A stretch of 64,000 bases of DNA, taken from contig CAMYMC010000030.1 in the NCBI GenBank assembly GCA_947259365.1, forward strand, positions 1 to 64,000, in the 5' to 3' direction. The DNA is from an uncultured Acidimicrobiaceae bacterium. Its GTDB lineage: Bacteria > Actinomycetota > Acidimicrobiia > Spongiisociales > UBA5794. The notes under the pieces are model-generated. The model did not search any database and had not been told where the DNA came from. It worked only from the letters and a program-made list of their open reading frames with translations. A program made the translations under genes and the position numbers. Shown here piece by piece: positions 25,880 to 33,323 of this stretch; the first letter of the stretch is position 1; each line of letters opens with the position of its first letter.

Positions 25880-27028
25880 TCAGCCGAGCTTGTCGCGCAG
25901 CCAGCGGAACGACGCCGGTGCCCACTCGGCGTAGTACTTGAACGCGCAGTGCCCGGCGTCGGCGTACACCCGCGCCTCTTTCCCGGTGACGGGCCCGTGC
26001 TCGAGCATGAAGTAGATGTTGCCGATCGGCGCCAGGTGGTCGAGCTTCCCGTTGATCATGAGGACGGGGCAGGTGATCCGATCCACGAGACCCAGCTCCG
26101 AGAGCGCCCACCTCGAGAAGGTCGCCTCTTCCTGTTCCACCGACGTCGGGGGGAACGTCGGCGGGTCGCCCTCGGCGCCGAACTGGAACGTCGCCCGTCG
26201 CGACCGCATGGCGACGTACGCGTCCATCTCCTCGGCCGTCATCCGGTAGCCGAACGGGTGCCCGGCAACGGCGACGACGGCCCGCACCATCTCCGGGTAC
26301 GTCCCGGCGAGCTGCATGACCGAGTAGCCGCCGCGGCTGATCCCGAAGGCTGCGATGCGCGTACGGTCGACCTCCGGTCTGGCGGCGAGGTGATCGATCG
26401 CAGCCATCCACGCCACGACCGACTCCGGGGCGTACGGGAACGGGTTCTCGCCGGTGCCGGGCGCGTCCATGACGAGCGCGGCGAGGCCCTCGTCGAGGAC
26501 CATCTCGGCGGCCCACCCTCTGTCCTCCTTGAAGACGTCGGCGCCGCACATGACGAGAACCGCACCGACCGGCTCCTCGGCGCTCGCGTGGTTCGGCGCG
26601 CGGTAATGCGTCCGGATCCGGCGGCCGTCACAGACGACGTCGACCTCCTCGAGGGGCGGATCGAGGTAGGCGGCGGCGTGGCGGTAGGCACGCTTGCAGT
26701 CGTCGCCGACGAGGCGCTTCACCGGCGACAGCTCGCCGGGAAAGCGGCCGATCGAGTAGTAGGTCTTGGCCTGGAGATAGGCCCGACGCGCCCCTTCCCG
26801 ATCGCCGGCGTCGTGGAGGCGGTGACCTTCCTCCTCGTAGTCCCTCCCCACCTCCCGCCACACCGGCACCCAGAGGTCCTCGGTCGTGCCCCGCAGCGAC
26901 GCCACGGTGCGCTCGAGGACGGACAGGTCGTCGATCATCGAGAACCAGCGGCGATAGAAGCCGCCGTGCTCGACGACGAACGGATCCTCGCTCGGGGCGA
27001 ATCCCAGCGATCCGGTCTCTGATGCCAT
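25880..27028 (-). CDS. Alpha/beta hydrolase (DHPON hydrolase/FrsA-like), second copy
   Basis: 382 residues. A helical N-terminal cap (EGHRLHDAGDREGARRAYLQAKTYYSIGRFP region) precedes a hydrolase core. The nucleophile is in FGISRGGYS, the acid in INGKLDHLAP and the His in DAGHCAFKYY. It shares its domain order with the 21.5-kb hydrolase but the sequences are clearly different. ATG 27028 is preceded by GAGGAGG. It converges with the O3 operon and is divergent from the selenoprotein gene. No operator-like palindrome is visible in its 56-nt upstream gap. Confidence 0.82.
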   Translation of the reverse strand: MASETGSLGFAPSEDPFVVEHGGFYRRWFSMIDDLSVLERTVASLRGTTEDLWVPVWREVGRDYEEEGHRLHDAGDREGARRAYLQAKTYYSIGRFPGELSPVKRLVGDDCKRAYRHAAAYLDPPLEEVDVVCDGRRIRTHYRAPNHASAEEPVGAVLVMCGADVFKEDRGWAAEMVLDEGLAALVMDAPGTGENPFPYAPESVVAWMAAIDHLAARPEVDRTRIAAFGISRGGYSVMQLAGTYPEMVRAVVAVAGHPFGYRMTAEEMDAYVAMRSRRATFQFGAEGDPPTFPPTSVEQEEATFSRWALSELGLVDRITCPVLMINGKLDHLAPIGNIYFMLEHGPVTGKEARVYADAGHCAFKYYAEWAPASFRWLRDKLG

Positions 27029-27084
27029 CGGTCCTCCTCGGCGGCCGCAGTAGCCTGTCGCGCCAGGCTATCGAGGGACCGACG

Positions 27085-27867
27085 TTGGCGCTCGATCACG
27101 AGATCCTCGACGAGAAGTACCGGTCGTGGCTGTCGCGGATCGCCTCCACCCACCACGGGGCGAACCACCGGGTCAACGACGAGGCCGGGTTTGCCCGCCT
27201 CTCCGCCCCGCTCGAACGCACGACGGTGGCGCTCGTGACCACCGCAGGCGCACACGTTCGGGGCCAGCAGCCGTTCACGGTCGACGACGTCGCCGGGGAC
27301 CCCACGTTCCGCCCCATCCCGGGTGATGTGGAGACGGCCGACCTGCGGTTCTCTCACACCCACTACGACACGTCGAGCGCGGAGACGGACCCGAACGTTG
27401 TCTTCCCCATCGACCGGCTCCGCGAATCCGCCGCCGCCGGGCGGATCGGCGACGTGTCGAGCATGCACATCGGGATGATGGGCTTCAACCCGGACCCGAC
27501 GGAGATCGCCGACGTCACCGCCGGGCGGGTCGCGTCGATCCTCGCGGAGGCCGGCGCCGGCGCCGTCCTCCTCGCTCCCGGCTGACCGATGTGCCACCGG
27601 TCGGTCGGACTGGTCCAGGGAGCCATCGAACGGGCCGGCATCCCCACCGCAGCCCTCACGCTCCGGCCGGAGATCACGATCCACATGAACGTGTCGCGAG
27701 CGGCCTACGTGCGGTTCCCCCTCGGCAATCCGTTCGGTGAGCCGCACCGGCCCGGCCAGCACCGGCTCGTCCTCGAGGACCTGTTCACGCTGCTCGAGAC
27801 AGCGACCGGGCCCAACACGCTCATCGAGCTCCCGTACCGATGGAAGAGATGGGGGAAGTGGCTGTGA
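27085..27867 (+). CDS. GrdB/PrdB-family reductase subunit, probable selenoprotein read through UGA
   Basis: 260 residues if TGA 27583-27585 is decoded as selenocysteine (residue 167). Before it, the family block HTHYDTSSAETDPNVVFPIDRLRE and GRIGDVSSMHIG are present. After it, in the same frame, come PMCHRSVGLVQGAIERAGIPT and the family C-terminus LIELPYRW. The TGA falls exactly at the U/C of the U-P-x-C-H redox motif of the D-proline/glycine-reductase B-type family, with the partner Cys at residue 170. Start TTG 27085 has GAGGGA about 6 nt upstream. Its reaction in an apparently non-clostridial genome is unknown. A nonsense mutation of a Cys codon is the main alternative. Confidence 0.82.
27597..27613 (+). 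promoter_or_regulatory. Candidate bacterial SECIS hairpin
   Basis: CCGGUC (27597-27602) pairs with GACUGG (27608-27613), six pairs including one G-U, closing the loop GGUCG. The loop's GGU starts 17 nt after the TGA. That is within the range expected for bacterial SECIS elements and close to the E. coli fdhF arrangement as I remember it. Confidence 0.7.
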
Positions 27868-28148
27868 CGATCCACGACGACGTCAAGACGCGCACCGAGG
27901 CGCTCGAGGCTGCCGTGTATGCCGCTCTGGAGGCCTGCGACGCCTACCGGGACACCGTCGTCGGCCACCTCGACGAGCTCGGTCGCCTCGACGGTCCCAG
28001 CGAGATGGTCGTCAAACGGCTCCGCCAGTTCCAGGCCCGCGCCGAGGCCATGATCCGGATCATCGAGGACGACGTGCTCGACGAGCTGTTGTTCTGCATC
28101 GACAGGCTGGCCATGTTCGACCTCGCCGAGCGGGGACGGTTCATCTGA
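27864..28148 (+). CDS. Small helical protein coupled to the selenoprotein gene
   Basis: 94 residues from GTG 27864, overlapping the selenoprotein stop as GTGA, with GGGGGAA upstream. It is almost all charged and hydrophobic helix (TRTEALEAAVYAALEACDAYRD, then VVKRLRQFQARAEAMIRIIEDD) with no transmembrane segment. It looks like a two- or three-helix coiled-coil protein. I recognise no family. The tight coupling suggests a partner subunit or chaperone for the GrdB/PrdB-like protein. Confidence 0.72.
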   Translation: MTIHDDVKTRTEALEAAVYAALEACDAYRDTVVGHLDELGRLDGPSEMVVKRLRQFQARAEAMIRIIEDDVLDELLFCIDRLAMFDLAERGRFI

Positions 28149-28155
28149 GGGAACC

Positions 28156-29169
28156 TCACCCGCCGGCGCGTTCGCCGATCTCGTCGACGAGGCGGCGGGC
28201 GTTGCCGTCGAGGATCATGCGGCGCTCGTCCTCCGACAGCCCCGGGATCGAGGCCACAGTGGCCACCGGGTCCGGGTCCCCCATCTCGAATGGATAGTCC
28301 GTGCCGAGGAGCACGTGGTCGGCACCGACGACGTCGACGAGGAACCGCAGGCTCGAGGCGGAGTGGAGCACCGTGTCGAAGTAGAGGCTCCGCATCAGCT
28401 CCGTCGGGCCCCTCACCATGTCGCCACCCATGAGCGACCGTTTCTCGTCGAACCCTCGCTGGAGACGGCCGACCTGGTACGGCAGGAACCCTCCGCCGTG
28501 GACGATGCACATCCGCAGCTCCGGGTGACGGTCGAGGACGCCGGTGACGAGGATGCGAGCGACCGCGAGGGTCGTCTCGGCGGGCCGGCCCACCATGTTG
28601 TGGAGGAAGTGGGCCGACAGGTCGATCCCGGGAAGCGGCTGGTGGGGGTGGACGAGGACGAGGCACCGCAACTCCGCGGCCTTCGCCCAGAAAGGCTCGA
28701 GGGACGCGTCGGCGAGCGGCGCCCCGTCGACGGTCGTTGCGATCTCGACCCCGACGGCCCCGAGCGACGCGACGGCGTATTCCAGCTCGGCCGCGGCGAT
28801 GTGTCCTTCCTGGAGCGGCACCGTCGCCAGCATCATGAACCGATCGGGATGGGTCGCGACCTCGGCCGCCAGCGCTTCGTTGAAGAGGCGGGAGTAGACC
28901 CCGCCGGCCTCGGGGTCCAGCTCGTACCCGGTGAGGTCGATCCAGCTCGACAGCATCTGGATCTCGACCCCGGTGGCATCCATCGTCCCCAGCCGGAGCA
29001 CGGGATCCATGAGCTCGGTGCGGATCGGGCCCGCGATGCGGCGTCCCGCGAGCACCGCGGTCGAGCCCCTCCCGTCCTCTTGGATCTCGACGCCGAGAGC
29101 GGCGCCCTCGTTGCGCAGCGCCGGCAGCAGCCGGGTGGGGACGCAGTGGGCGTGGACGTCGATGCTCAC
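28156..29169 (-). CDS. Amidohydrolase-2 family protein (ACMSD-like)
   Basis: 337 residues from GTG 29169, with GGAGGAGG upstream; it overlaps the LVIVD-gene stop by 4 nt. The metal ligands are visible: HxH in IDVHAHC, a His in CLVLVHPHQ, a further His in CIVHGGGFLPYQVGR, and the Asp in VLLGTDYPFEMG. This is the TIM-barrel pattern of 2-amino-3-carboxymuconate-semialdehyde decarboxylase and gamma-resorcylate decarboxylase. Non-oxidative decarboxylation or hydrolysis of a cyclic acid is likely. It is the third gene of the operon starting at operator O4. Confidence 0.87.
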   Translation of the reverse strand: MSIDVHAHCVPTRLLPALRNEGAALGVEIQEDGRGSTAVLAGRRIAGPIRTELMDPVLRLGTMDATGVEIQMLSSWIDLTGYELDPEAGGVYSRLFNEALAAEVATHPDRFMMLATVPLQEGHIAAAELEYAVASLGAVGVEIATTVDGAPLADASLEPFWAKAAELRCLVLVHPHQPLPGIDLSAHFLHNMVGRPAETTLAVARILVTGVLDRHPELRMCIVHGGGFLPYQVGRLQRGFDEKRSLMGGDMVRGPTELMRSLYFDTVLHSASSLRFLVDVVGADHVLLGTDYPFEMGDPDPVATVASIPGLSEDERRMILDGNARRLVDEIGERAGG

Positions 29170-30332
29170 CGTGAGGCCTCCTCCATCCGTGCTCTCAGGT
29201 CGTCGTCGGGCTCGAGGACGTAGACGCCGCCGTTCACCCGGTCGGTGACGAACACCGTCCCCCCGTGATCGACGAAGACGTCGTTGATCTGCGCCGCCGC
29301 CTGCCCAGGGGGGCATTGCGGGATCCAGTGTGCGATCTCGCGTGGCCGGGAGGCATCGGCGAGGTCGTAGACCCGAAGACCTGCGTTGAAGTACGTCACG
29401 AACACGACCTCGTCGCTCCGGTAGCTGCCGGGACGGTTCTCGTGGAGGCAATGGGCGCCGAAGCGCAGGCCCCGCTCGCAGAAGTCGCCCTCCGGCACGG
29501 GGCAGATCGACAGGACCCGGGGGTGGGCTTCGTCGGCGACGTCGACGACGCGCACCATGTGCGGCGGGCCATCGCATCCGTCCTCGATCGCCTCGTCCGT
29601 CACGACCACGAGATCACGGCCGATCAGCGGCAGGCAGGTGTGAGTGTGGCCGCCGACCTCCCACTGGAGGTGGGACACCACGCCGGGGTTGGCGAGATCG
29701 GTGATGTCGAGGATGACCATGCCGGAGTCCCAGAATCCGAGGTACGCCCGATCGCCGTGGACCATCGCGTGGTGGACCGACCGCGACTCGGTCGCAGGCC
29801 AGTCGGGCACCTCGCCGCCACCGGTGAACATGCCCGGCCACCACCAGCGGCCGGCCTCGACCGGGTGCTCCGGATCATCGAGGTCGACGATGACCCAGAT
29901 GCGCTCGGCGAACCCTTCGGGTGTCGCCGAGACGTACGCGTAGCGACCGCCCTCCCACACGATGCGGTGGACCCCGCTGCCACCCGACGAGTAGAACCCG
30001 ATCTGGCGGGGGTCGAAGGGATCGGCGAGGTCGTAGATCGCGAACCCGGCCGAGGAGTGGTTCCCGCCGCGGAACTGCTCGTGGTTGACGAGGAGCAGCC
30101 CGTCGGCGACCTGGACCTTGTGGCTGTGGCCGCCCGGTGGCGCCGGCCACTGGTTCGCGAGACGCGGATCGGCGAGATCGGAGACATCGAGGATGCTCGT
30201 GCCCATCCCGCTCGGGCCGAAGTGCCCGACGTAGAGAGCATCCCCTTCCCGCATGACCTGCATCCCGTCCCCGTGTCCACCGAGATCGGATGACCCGACG
30301 AGACGGAGGCCGACCGCCGACTCCGGATGCAT
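29166..30332 (-). CDS. LVIVD-repeat beta-propeller protein
   Basis: 388 residues with repeated units of the form V-x-D-[LV]-x-D-P (ILDVSDLADPRLANQW, IYDLADPFDPRQIGFY, IVDLDDPEHPVEAGRW, ILDITDLANPGVVSHL, VVDVADEAHPRVLS, VYDLADASRPREIAHW). These are the marks of LVIVD propellers. Many His residues (GGHSHK, SVHHAMVHGD, GGHTHTC) could bind metal. No signal peptide is seen, so it is probably cytoplasmic. ATG 30332 has GAGGAG upstream. Some relatives are annotated as selenium-binding-like or lactonase-like; I have no firm function. Confidence 0.83.
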   Translation of the reverse strand: MHPESAVGLRLVGSSDLGGHGDGMQVMREGDALYVGHFGPSGMGTSILDVSDLADPRLANQWPAPPGGHSHKVQVADGLLLVNHEQFRGGNHSSAGFAIYDLADPFDPRQIGFYSSGGSGVHRIVWEGGRYAYVSATPEGFAERIWVIVDLDDPEHPVEAGRWWWPGMFTGGGEVPDWPATESRSVHHAMVHGDRAYLGFWDSGMVILDITDLANPGVVSHLQWEVGGHTHTCLPLIGRDLVVVTDEAIEDGCDGPPHMVRVVDVADEAHPRVLSICPVPEGDFCERGLRFGAHCLHENRPGSYRSDEVVFVTYFNAGLRVYDLADASRPREIAHWIPQCPPGQAAAQINDVFVDHGGTVFVTDRVNGGVYVLEPDDDLRARMEEASR

Positions 30333-30352
30333 GAGATCTCCTCCGAGGTCGC

Positions 30353-30913
30353 TCACCCGGTCGTCGCCGCCGACCGCATCGCCTCCGCGAGCTGACCCTG
30401 GGCGGCCCCGAGCGTCTTGAGCCATCGCTGGCCGCCGAAGGTGAATCCCACCCAGTAGCCGATCTCCACGATCTCGGCCTCGGTGAACTCGGCACGCAAC
30501 GCCGCCCACATCCCGTCGTCGGCACGCGCCGGGTCCCACATGATCGTGTCGGCGTACCGGAGGGCGAGCTTCTGCCGAGGGGTGTACCGCTCGGATGTGT
30601 CGAAGTGGAGGAGGTCGTGGAGCTCGTCGTGGTCCTGGGCGATGTCGCGAGCGATGCCCTGGTTGGCGCAGTAGGTGCACTCCCCGGCGAGCGAGATGTA
30701 CGCGCGCAGCAACTCCTTGAGGTCGAAGTCGACGACGCCGTCGTGATAGATCCACTCCCGGGTCTTCGTGAACGAGCGCATGACGCCGGGCTGGTGGGCG
30801 CGGATCGACTGGAACTCCGGTCCCGGCTTGCCACGCTCGATCGCGGCTTCGAGCCAGGCGCGACACTCGACGTCGTCGACCTGATCCGGGAGCCGGTAGC
30901 TGATGTGGGCCAT
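30353..30913 (-). CDS. Carboxymuconolactone decarboxylase / AhpD-like peroxidase-family protein
   Basis: 186 residues. The all-helical CMD domain carries the redox CxxC motif in GECTYCANQGIARDIAQDH, as in AhpD-type alkylhydroperoxidases. True decarboxylases lack that pair. ATG 30913 is preceded by AGGAGG. It is the first gene of a three-gene operon with the LVIVD protein and the amidohydrolase, read from a promoter overlapping operator O4. A redox partner role with the GrdB/PrdB-like protein is conceivable but only a guess. Confidence 0.85.
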   Translation of the reverse strand: MAHISYRLPDQVDDVECRAWLEAAIERGKPGPEFQSIRAHQPGVMRSFTKTREWIYHDGVVDFDLKELLRAYISLAGECTYCANQGIARDIAQDHDELHDLLHFDTSERYTPRQKLALRYADTIMWDPARADDGMWAALRAEFTEAEIVEIGYWVGFTFGGQRWLKTLGAAQGQLAEAMRSAATTG

Positions 30914-30950: not shown

Positions 30951-31033
30951 GCGGCGACACCGAAACGTGACCCAGCCGGCCTGTGGACGGCGAATGCGCG
31001 CCCACCGACGCAACCCCGTCGCGGGCTGCCCGG

Positions 31034-31047
31034 GACAATCGATTGCA
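31034..31047. promoter_or_regulatory. LacI-type operator O5 (autoregulation of the lacI-family gene)
   Basis: GACAATCGATTGCA matches the consensus except at the first base. It sits just upstream of TACACT (31053-31058), a likely -10 element for the regulator gene, whose ATG is at 31084. O4 and O5 together could support looping across the divergent promoter. Confidence 0.8.
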
Positions 31048-31083
31048 GTCGCTACACTCCGGCCAAACCGCCGGGGCAGACGT

Positions 31084-32118
31084 ATGAACGATCGAGTGAC
31101 ACTGCGCGATGTCGCCCGTGAGGCCGGCGTCCACGCTTCGACGGCGTCTCGCGCCCTCAACCCGGAGACCCGCGGCGTCGTGAGCGAGACGACGGTCCAC
31201 CGGGTCCTCGAGGCAGCGAGACGGCTGTCCTACCGCCCCCATGCCGTCGCCCGCGGGCTGCGCACCAACCGGACGATGACCGTCGGGATGGTGGTCCCCG
31301 ACCTCGAGAACCCGCTGTTCCCCCCCATCGTTCGCGGCGTCGAGGCCGAGCTCGGCGGCGCCGGCTACTCGATCCTCGTCGGTAACACCGACAACGACGC
31401 GGAACGGCTCCGCACGATGGTGGCCTCGCTCCTCGCCCACCAGGTGGATGGGCTCATCCTCGCCACCGCCGCGGCCCACGACGACCTCGTCGACGAGCTC
31501 GTCGAGCGCCGGGTCGCGCTCGTTCTCGTCAACCGCTTCGCCGAGGACGTCCCCACCTCCGCCGTGGTCGGCGACGACAGGGCGGGCATCGAGCTCGCCG
31601 TTGCCCACATCGCGTCGCTCGGCCATCGCGTCGTCGGCCATGTCGCCGGGCCCGGCGTGCTGTCGACGGGACGGGTCCGCGCCAAGACCTTCCTCGAAGC
31701 CGCCATCCGCCACCGGCTCGACGTCGACCCCGGGCTCGTCGAGGAAGCGGGATGGTTCCAGGTCGAGCCCGGCCGCCACGCCTGCCTCGCCCTCCTCGAT
31801 CGCCGGCCCGACATGACCGCGGTCGTCGCCGCCAACGACCTGCTCGCGCTCGGGTGCTACGCGGCCGCCGCCCAGCGCGGCCGCCACGTCCCGCAGGATC
31901 TCTCGGTCACCGGCTACAACGACATGCCGTTCGTCGACCTCATGGAGCCGGCGCTGACGACGATCTGTGTGCCGTACCGGGAGATGGGCCACGTCGCCGG
32001 TGTGAGCCTGCTCGAGCTCATGCGTCGCAACCCGGACCTGCCGTCCCCGCCGGCCGAGACGATCCGCCTCACCCCGAGCCTGACCGTCCGGGCCTCGACG
32101 GCCCCGCCTCGTTCGTGA
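31084..32118 (+). CDS. LacI-family transcriptional regulator
   Basis: 344 residues. The N-terminal HTH is classical (VTLRDVAREAGVHASTASRALN), then the hinge (YRPHAVARGLRT) and a periplasmic-binding-protein-like effector domain (MTVGMVVPDLENPLFPPIVRGVE to TAVVAANDLLALG and VTGYNDMPFV). ATG 31084 starts right at the HTH; the open frame upstream runs through the promoter. It is the only such regulator in the window and lies centrally among the seven operators, one in its own promoter, so it is the likely repressor of the whole set. LacI effectors are usually sugars or nucleosides. Confidence 0.93.
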   Translation: MNDRVTLRDVAREAGVHASTASRALNPETRGVVSETTVHRVLEAARRLSYRPHAVARGLRTNRTMTVGMVVPDLENPLFPPIVRGVEAELGGAGYSILVGNTDNDAERLRTMVASLLAHQVDGLILATAAAHDDLVDELVERRVALVLVNRFAEDVPTSAVVGDDRAGIELAVAHIASLGHRVVGHVAGPGVLSTGRVRAKTFLEAAIRHRLDVDPGLVEEAGWFQVEPGRHACLALLDRRPDMTAVVAANDLLALGCYAAAAQRGRHVPQDLSVTGYNDMPFVDLMEPALTTICVPYREMGHVAGVSLLELMRRNPDLPSPPAETIRLTPSLTVRASTAPPRS

Positions 32119-33323
32119 CGACGCCGGGGCCCGGCGCGGCGACGCCGGCGCCGGGCCGTGGGCCGCGGACCGGCATCGTCATCGGAGCCGGCCTGCTCGC
32201 CATCACCACCGCTGCGTTCGTCCGACCGCCGCTGCTCCCCGACATGGGTCGCGATCTCGACCTCTCGCCCACCGGTCTCGGTGCGCTCGGATCGGTCTTC
32301 GCGCTCGGGCGGATCATCACCGACATCCCGGTGGGCCGCCTCACCGACACCAAGCCTTCGGGCCGCATGCTCGCGGCCGGTGCCGCCCTCGTCGGCGCCG
32401 GCAGCGTCGTCTCCGGTCTCGCCCCGGTGAGTGCGCTCGCGTTCGCCGGCGCTTTCGTCCTCGGCATCGGGTCGGCGTGGACCAACACCACCGGCATGGC
32501 TGCGTTCGCCACGGCACCCCGCCACCGCCGGGGCGTCGCCATGTCGGCATTCGCCGCCGGCCTCCTCCTCGGCCAGGCCGTCGGGCCGGCGTTCGGGGGT
32601 CTCGTCGCCGCGGCGAGCGACTGGCGGATCGCGTTCTTCGCGGCAGCCGGGCTCATGGGCGGCGTGGCCGCGTGGCTCCTGCTCATCCTGCGCTCGCAGC
32701 CCGCCCCGCGAGCACCGACGGTCGGCGTGGCAGCGTCCCCACCCGCACCGGAGCTGCCGCGCCGGCGCGTGTTGGCCGCCCTCTACCTGCTGCCCGCCGT
32801 CCAGTTCGGCATCGGCGGAGCGATGGTGCAGACGCTCGTTCCGATCGTCGGTGACGCCGAGCTCGGGCTCGGTGCCGGCATCGTCGGGCTCGCCATCGGG
32901 CTCGGAGGGTTGTTCCGTCTCGCCGGGGCAGTCATCAGCGGCAGGATCGCCGATCGTCGCTCGCGGCGGTGGGCGCTGTTCCCGGGTCTTCTCATCCAGT
33001 TCGCCGGCCTCGTCGTGTTCGCCGCTGCCGGGTCGAGGGCCGGCTGGGCGATCGCGATCGGCCTCGTCATGCTCGGATCGGTCGGCGTCAACGTCGGCGC
33101 GACGATCCTCGCCGACCTCACCGAGGGCGGCGGCCTCGGCCGCAGACTCGGCATGTTCCGCCTGACGGGCGATCTGGCGCTGCTCGTCGCCCCCGCCCTC
33201 GCCGGTGCCCTCTACGACGTGGCCGGCCGCGGGATCTCGGTGCTCCCCCTCATCGTCTTCGTGGCCGCAGTGATCGCATTTGCCTTCGTCGTCGTCCCCG
33301 AGACGGTGGCTCCCGACGGATGA
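32115..33323 (+). CDS. Major facilitator superfamily transporter
   Basis: 402 residues from GTG 32115, overlapping the regulator stop as GTGA. About twelve hydrophobic helices are seen. The loop 2-3 motif reads DIPVGRLTDTKPSGR, and its second-half counterpart is SGRIADRRSRR. Being co-transcribed with the lacI-family gene, it probably moves the inducer or a pathway product. Substrate and direction cannot be told. Confidence 0.88.
   Translation: MTTPGPGAATPAPGRGPRTGIVIGAGLLAITTAAFVRPPLLPDMGRDLDLSPTGLGALGSVFALGRIITDIPVGRLTDTKPSGRMLAAGAALVGAGSVVSGLAPVSALAFAGAFVLGIGSAWTNTTGMAAFATAPRHRRGVAMSAFAAGLLLGQAVGPAFGGLVAAASDWRIAFFAAAGLMGGVAAWLLLILRSQPAPRAPTVGVAASPPAPELPRRRVLAALYLLPAVQFGIGGAMVQTLVPIVGDAELGLGAGIVGLAIGLGGLFRLAGAVISGRIADRRSRRWALFPGLLIQFAGLVVFAAAGSRAGWAIAIGLVMLGSVGVNVGATILADLTEGGGLGRRLGMFRLTGDLALLVAPALAGALYDVAGRGISVLPLIVFVAAVIAFAFVVVPETVAPDG

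Follow-up and report, generated by a model that had tools for sequence, protein, structure and literature searches.

Does a reading frame interrupted by an in-frame TGA in the genome of an uncultured Acidimicrobiaceae bacterium encode a selenoprotein, and, if so, what might that protein do in its locus? In the window, i.e., the whole 64,000-nt stretch of DNA analyzed here, a single reading frame runs on the (+) strand from TTG 27085 to a stop codon at 27865–27867, with one internal TGA at 27583–27585. A preliminary description of this DNA had reported two open frames in the same reading frame, split only by that codon, and had taken them for one conserved, probable selenoprotein; its coordinates proved exact. 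Translation with TGA read as selenocysteine (Sec) yields a protein of 260 aa (27085–27867) with Sec at residue 167 and the motif G-U-P-M-C-H, and both Pfam GRDB and an alignment with 12 relatives mark it as PrdB/GrdB-like. TTG 27085 is the probable start codon: it is preceded by GAGGGA, and close relatives have candidate starts at about the same distance upstream of the UGA. Six in-frame TGA junctions in the window, including that at 27583–27585, are flanked on either side by a GC signal of the coding type; a homolog search was made for this one of the six, and it found homology across the codon. Gene calling that depends on stop codons breaks a selenoprotein gene such as this into two open frames.

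Conservation and decoding of the in-frame UGA

Homologs were found in 26 of 50 family genomes searched, at 33 places, of which 32 carry one internal TGA and one is a fragment ending before the site. The 11 close loci (GTDB set) all come from metagenome-assembled genomes, six labeled Acidimicrobiia/Acidimicrobiaceae, three labeled only "bacterium" and two labeled Chloroflexi. Overall, 76 sites reduced to 54 distinct 48-base stretches from many genera, and TGA stood at the aligned codon in 54 of 54; this count covers the loci fetched by the earlier searches, includes one locus (L046) that lacks the UPxC motif and whose alignment is doubtful, and leaves outside it two site-spanning matches without TGA (in genomes G198 and G252, from the class search). 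Together with six homologs from the phylum listing, these two make up the eight non-TGA homologs read later, all of which span the site; their aligned codon is TGC (Cys) in seven and GCG (Ala) in one. Given the TGA in all 54 stretches and the TGC or GCG in the other eight, the site is one of Sec, Cys or, rarely, Ala, in keeping with the earlier claim of a Sec-or-Cys family position. Downstream of the TGA, identity within the clade of closest relatives is 63–76%; with homology on both sides of the codon, the view of one conserved protein across the TGA was borne out. In one other family of the phylum (f66), PrdB-like homologs in G402, G594, G608, G451, G500, G509 and G570 are listed with two TGA codons, or a TGA plus a TAA or TAG, inside the match.

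Across the class, 92 of 296 genomes (each at least 70% complete) contained a homolog, some of the matches being weak (E-values of 1e-8 to 1e-16), and across the phylum 77 of 396 genomes did, with TGA in most places among the matches listed. Symbiobacterium, once counted among the Actinobacteria, has since been moved out of that phylum. In a 2006 survey, it was the richest member of the Actinobacteria, then one of three selenoprotein-rich phyla (PMC1794560). The GOS survey lists PrdB with UxxC among the commoner selenoproteins (235 Sec and 110 Cys forms) and reports PrdB/GrdB-like homologs as common in seawater (PMC2398784), and a 2016 survey counted 131 proline reductases across 110 organisms (PMC5029168). 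Sec-containing PrdB-like proteins are thus already known (PMC2398784, PMC5029168), and, because homologs are common both in the phylum and in seawater, the earlier remark that an actinobacterium would be an unusual place for one is not supported.

Bacterial SECIS elements are hairpins located just 3′ of the UGA, with a G among the first bases of the loop. A SECIS-like hairpin lies at 27596–27614 on the (+) strand: the 6-bp stem with a GGU-containing loop noted earlier (27597–27602 paired with 27608–27613) begins 11 nt past the TGA and encloses the loop GGUCG (27603–27607), which lies 17 nt past the UGA, and A27596–U27614 adds a seventh pair. L046 has no UPxC motif and was set aside here. Among the other 53 distinct sequences, standard pairs fill 87.6% of the stem cells (seven pairs per sequence), compared to 70.2% (sd 1.9; maximum 75.7% in 1,000 draws) in a control that redraws synonymous codons and leaves the protein unchanged. 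Sliding the 3′ side of the stem by 1 to 4 bases lowered pairing to 23–46%. Within the close clade (ten distinct sequences), 98.6% of cells were paired versus 76.6% in the control. Compensatory swaps of both kinds, C-G/G-C and U-A/A-U, were seen: pair 15–29 reads C-G in 28 of the 53 sequences and G-C in 20, and pair 16–28 is U-A in 18, A-U in 17 and G-U in 11. Since pairing exceeds the coding control, we infer that the hairpin is under selection where the UGA is present. In the small set of eight non-TGA homologs, selection on the hairpin was not detectable (62.5% paired versus 58.2 ± 4.3% in the control), and three of the eight nonetheless pair at six of the seven stem positions.

The window thus has the covarying 7-bp stem and GGUCG loop that the bacterial rule describes; the isolated stretch has another minimum-energy fold, with other pairings favored when 38, 42 or 48 nt were folded. 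Nor did the fold energy lie clearly below that of synonymous recodings (z of −0.19 for the isolated stretch and a mean z of −0.54 over the 53 sequences). As isolated folds and energies are unconvincing, the case for the hairpin stands on the comparison between sequences. An Rfam scan of positions 26500–28500 gave four matches, none reaching its gathering score. The same genome holds a second, distant PrdB-like gene with an in-frame TGA (G000:C1:171165-171827; loci L044 and L060), whose post-TGA stretch is one of the 53 sequences counted above.

The preliminary description had also proposed a check of the genome for selA, selB, selC and selD. All four are present above curated or gathering cut-offs in the source genome (3.34 Mb in 50 contigs, 94% complete). 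selA (420 bits) lies just upstream of selB (321 bits) on contig 31, their matched stretches being 23 bases apart; tRNA-Sec (selC) scores 72.9 bits, above its gathering score of 47, and is called tRNA-Sec(UCA) by ARAGORN; and selD scores 391 bits. selD (G000:C37:25583-26506, L016) carries an in-frame TGA and is therefore probably a selenoprotein gene itself; a motif inspection found nothing. tRNA-Sec occurs twice, with 72.9 bits each time (G000:C37:5-95 and G000:C41:77748-77838); judged by locus lengths, each copy lies within a few bases of the end of its contig, and they may be one gene in overlapping contig ends.

selB scored above its cut-off in 81 of the 92 homolog-bearing versus 83 of the 204 homolog-free class genomes (Fisher p = 2.6e-15), a hand count from the search listing (164 in total) in which G079 and G129 were judged from E-values. 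Among the 11 homolog-bearing genomes in which selB did not reach its cut-off, ten list the TGA form and one (G198) has Ala. Four of the TGA-form genomes (G011, G303, G107 and G307) are 93–96% complete; gaps in the drafts are a likely, but unproven, explanation for the TGA-form genomes that miss selB.

With the codon conserved, the hairpin covarying and the sel genes in place, these comparisons strongly support a selenoprotein gene rather than a nonsense mutant, and UGA 27583–27585, which opens the UPMCH motif, is almost certainly decoded as Sec, as had been proposed.

A small partner gene and a neighboring hydrolase

The closest relatives of the selenoprotein form a clade of 12 rows (SH-aLRT 100% in a quick tree without bootstrap) within a mostly Sec-bearing family, and this clade is present in 9 of the 296 class genomes (E-values below 1e-129). 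In all nine, the selenoprotein gene is followed directly by a small gene that, together with the conserved hydrolase described below, was absent from the preliminary description. In the window, this partner gene occupies 27864–28148 on the (+) strand and encodes 94 aa from GTG 27864, which overlaps the selenoprotein stop (GTGA). Its longest open frame, from ATG 27840, would give 102 aa, the first conserved residues of which overlie, in the other frame, the C-terminal RWxRWxKWL of the selenoprotein. Among 11 distinct loci, nine have the partner start lying over the selenoprotein stop as ATGA or GTGA; L018 has TTGA, and L055 has no start codon there. An NTG overlapping the stop is the likelier start compared to ATG 27840. 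A profile of the partner matched in ten of the 296 genomes, i.e., the nine clade genomes and, marginally, G270 (E = 3e-4). The protein has no Pfam or NCBIfam match, and its structure is predicted to be a two-helix hairpin (pLDDT 90.9). Sec decoding in combination with a two-gene module of selenoprotein and small partner is a reading that we hold with good confidence.

One Chloroflexi relative (L057:1519-1794) has a 91-aa frame at the place of the partner (local HMM E = 0.03; hhalign probability 34%), and in the other, L056, the same local HMM search gave no partner-like frame. As a weak lead, the L057 frame may represent a diverged version of this partner; if it truly does, the pairing is older than the Acidimicrobiia clade. 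Within the open-licence literature, we found no description of this clade with its small partner and hydrolase.

Divergent from the selenoprotein gene is a gene for an FrsA-like alpha/beta hydrolase (25880–27028, (−) strand; Pfam FrsA-like). By PDB sequence matches, its nearest solved relatives are Ayg1 (8qd1; 6e-29) and 2,6-dihydroxypseudooxynicotine hydrolase (2jbw; 1e-12), both of which are carbon-carbon hydrolases. The hydrolase adjoins the selenoprotein in all nine clade genomes with 65–70% identity, the copy in G257 being cut by a contig end. It also occurs in nine genomes that do not carry the selenoprotein clade, one of them (G248) with a fragment only, so that the pathway, if there is one, can dispense with the selenoprotein. 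Among the eight clade-free hydrolase loci fetched (L108 to L116), an amine-oxidase-like flavoprotein and an S15-type hydrolase adjoin in L110, L113 and L115, where they may substitute for the selenoprotein.

Downstream of the partner, three genes lie on the (−) strand. The first, at 28156–29157, encodes an amidohydrolase-2 family enzyme (PF04909), relatives of which stand beside the module in L019/L052 and in L058, where the relative falls into the same sequence cluster; in L113 and L115, relatives lie close to the hydrolase. The second, at 29166–30350, encodes an LVIVD-repeat protein (PF08309), relatives of which lie not far from the hydrolase in L107, L108, L112, L113 and L115. The third, at 30353–30913, encodes an AhpD-like (CMD) protein (PF02627) in its Cys form, with a CTYC motif; relatives with 63–70% identity occur in L047, L049, L052, L053, L054 and L058. 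Near a PrdB-like gene in another locus, an AhpD-like gene has an in-frame TGA (CDY-TGA; L047:207-716 on the (−) strand, the same site as L106:2556-3065 on the (−) strand), and an AhpD-like frame in L058 (14445–15020, (+) strand), also near a PrdB-like gene, is interrupted by a stop codon roughly where that motif lies. These AhpD-like proteins of L047/L106 and L058 are likely a second selenoprotein of the neighborhood.

Two further genes follow on the (+) strand: a LacI-type regulator at 30967–32118 (Pfam LacI and Peripla_BP_3; scanned from 31084), with relatives in 6 of the 11 close loci, and a frame for an MFS transporter at 31752–33323, whose true start lies inside that stretch and whose NCBIfam MFS matches all fall below their own cut-offs. 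Amidohydrolase, LVIVD-repeat, AhpD-like, LacI and MFS genes recur in parts of the clade, as do those for a D-2-hydroxyacid dehydrogenase, a creatininase-family protein and a GFO/IDH/MocA oxidoreductase. The hydrolase, amidohydrolase, AhpD-like, LacI and transporter neighbors indicate a substrate-regulated catabolic pathway in which the selenoprotein would be one step.

Proposed role of the selenoprotein and its alternatives

The best reading of these data is a selenol-dependent catabolic enzyme made with a dedicated small partner. SelB and tRNA-Sec would read UGA 27583–27585 as Sec under direction of the hairpin at 27596–27614, and translation would continue to UGA 27865, giving a 28-kDa protein. 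A ribosome finishing the selenoprotein would be in place to start the 94-aa partner, whereas one stopping at the first UGA would end ~280 nt upstream of the partner start; with that start lying across the second stop, the amount of partner made should track the selenium supply. In the structure model of the selenoprotein (pLDDT 91.6, pTM 0.91), Sec167 directly precedes a predicted helix (168–183) with Cys170 in its first turn. By analogy with GrdB/PrdB, the selenolate of Sec167 would most likely attack the substrate and expel a leaving group, and the selenium adduct could then be resolved via Cys170 and recycled by cellular thiols. Since the small protein is strictly linked downstream and no pyruvoyl-subunit match was found among the scanned neighbors, its function may be that of a subunit for structure or for binding the substrate. 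Selenoprotein and partner would together carry out a single step in a catabolic pathway under LacI control, and this pathway would have a substrate or a product in common with the hydrolase. That this step is a reductive cleavage is plausible, at somewhat less than an even chance. Only tentatively do we propose the full picture of a two-component enzyme: a PrdB-like subunit with Sec would have swapped its pyruvoyl partner for a dedicated 94-aa helical subunit, co-translated by way of the overlapping stop and start, with Sec decoding controlling the supply of both, and would reductively cleave a non-amino-acid intermediate in a hydrolase-centered catabolism of Acidimicrobiia.

The alternative that survives best, possible though rather unlikely, is a non-reductive role in which Sec is the nucleophile of a thiol- or peroxide-handling or an isomerizing enzyme, for instance one working with the AhpD-like protein, and the main substrate is not attacked. 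Such a role fits the presence of AhpD-like proteins at the locus, relatives of which include two that seem to be Sec forms, and the similarity of UxxC to thiol-redox motifs, but Foldseek of the selenoprotein model against the PDB gave no match with an E-value <0.001, to a thioredoxin-like fold or to any other, and characterized members of the family are, as generally held and in line with a recent review (PMC13188914), substrate reductases. A PDB sequence search with the selenoprotein gave no match at E-values up to 1. A profile search of the PDB returned three matches with E-values of 0.0004–0.53 (a de novo design, a dihydrogenase and a phosphate-loop protein), which were taken as chance.

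We consider it improbable that the locus is a selenium switch, in which the 166-residue form would have a role of its own when selenium is short, and the full form with its partner would be made when it is plentiful. In most of the clade, the partner start overlaps the second stop, which would suit such a switch because termination at the first UGA deprives the partner of an upstream ribosome, yet any selenoprotein gene partly shows such behavior. Moreover, with the UGA as first codon of the invariant UPxCH motif, the short form would miss the presumed active site.

Still less probable is a true D-proline reductase (PrdB) or component B of a glycine, sarcosine or betaine reductase serving as an electron sink. 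PrdB (TIGR04483) is the best-scoring named NCBIfam model (1.7e-44, residues 33–254), followed by the various_sel_PB subfamily, GrdH, GrdF and GrdB models, and the Pfam GRDB family (PF07355) scores 33.6 bits against a cut-off of 22 over profile positions 222–345 of 347. Every NCBIfam model, however, remains below its cut-off: the PrdB equivalog reaches 152.1 of 300 bits, and the GrdB models TIGR01917 and TIGR01918 reach 41.4 of 602.2 and 48 of 65.45 bits, respectively. These scores place the protein among the PrdB/GrdB-like proteins and outside the D-proline reductase equivalog; the kinship given in the preliminary description therefore stands, but an identity as D-proline reductase subunit does not. 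Against a true reductase are also the neighbors, which are hydrolases and oxidoreductases of other kinds and, as scanned, include no pyruvoyl-subunit match, and the active-site motif: the sequence has U167, C170 and S173, and all 13 aligned rows show Ser where UxxCxxC has its third Cys. The pyruvoyl-subunit profile PF09338 had no match in 30 genomes, the nine clade genomes included, and was silent in 14 controls as well, so that this uncalibrated search does not speak for the absence of such a subunit. Finally, a nonsense mutation leaving a pseudogene or only a truncated peptide of ~166 residues, for which the in-frame stop and the unfavored fold of the isolated hairpin RNA might speak, is hardly credible against the TGA shared by all 54 distinct sites in many genera, the strong conservation past it and a complete Sec machinery with a covarying hairpin.

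Comparison with known selenoproteins

To our knowledge, the PrdB-like members characterized so far are reductases of anaerobes. That the closest relatives here share one small partner points to a little-studied kind of actinobacterial selenium enzyme. In this clade, a PrdB-like protein has a fixed genetic setting, made up of the strictly linked small partner, a regulator and a hydrolase whose relatives can be identified, which makes substrate and chemistry directly testable.

PrdB itself (TIGR04483; ~26 kDa, Sec in UxxC) shares its size, the position of Sec and the UPxC motif with the protein described here. In place of a PrdA-type pyruvoyl proprotein or PrdC, neither of which was matched among the scanned neighbors, this locus has the 94-aa helical partner and the FrsA-like hydrolase. 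A 2026 review describes D-proline reductase with UxxC and the operons prdB-prdC and grdA-grdB (PMC13188914). GrdB, GrdF and GrdH (PF07355) have Sec followed by Cys at +3, as found here, and Pfam GRDB is above its cut-off; the present protein differs in its length (260 aa, compared to 431–435 positions of the GrdB-type models) and in Ser173, where the UxxCxxC motif has its last Cys (PMC13188914). The "Proline reductase PrdB" selenoproteins of the GOS survey, with PF07355 and UxxC, are reported in Sec and Cys forms; in its PrdB account, that survey names neither a small partner nor a hydrolase (PMC2398784). The clade described here is of this broad kind. A further comparison is with FarB/FarE, a GrdB/GrdE-like pair put forward for the reduction of monofluoroacetate (PMC10838667). 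FarB/FarE belongs to an operon of anaerobic Synergistota and has a GrdE-like partner, whereas the partner here is a short helical protein without a family match. The likeness, as that report presents its system, lies in a GrdB-like selenoprotein, a proposed substrate that is not an amino acid and a partner that forms no pyruvoyl group.
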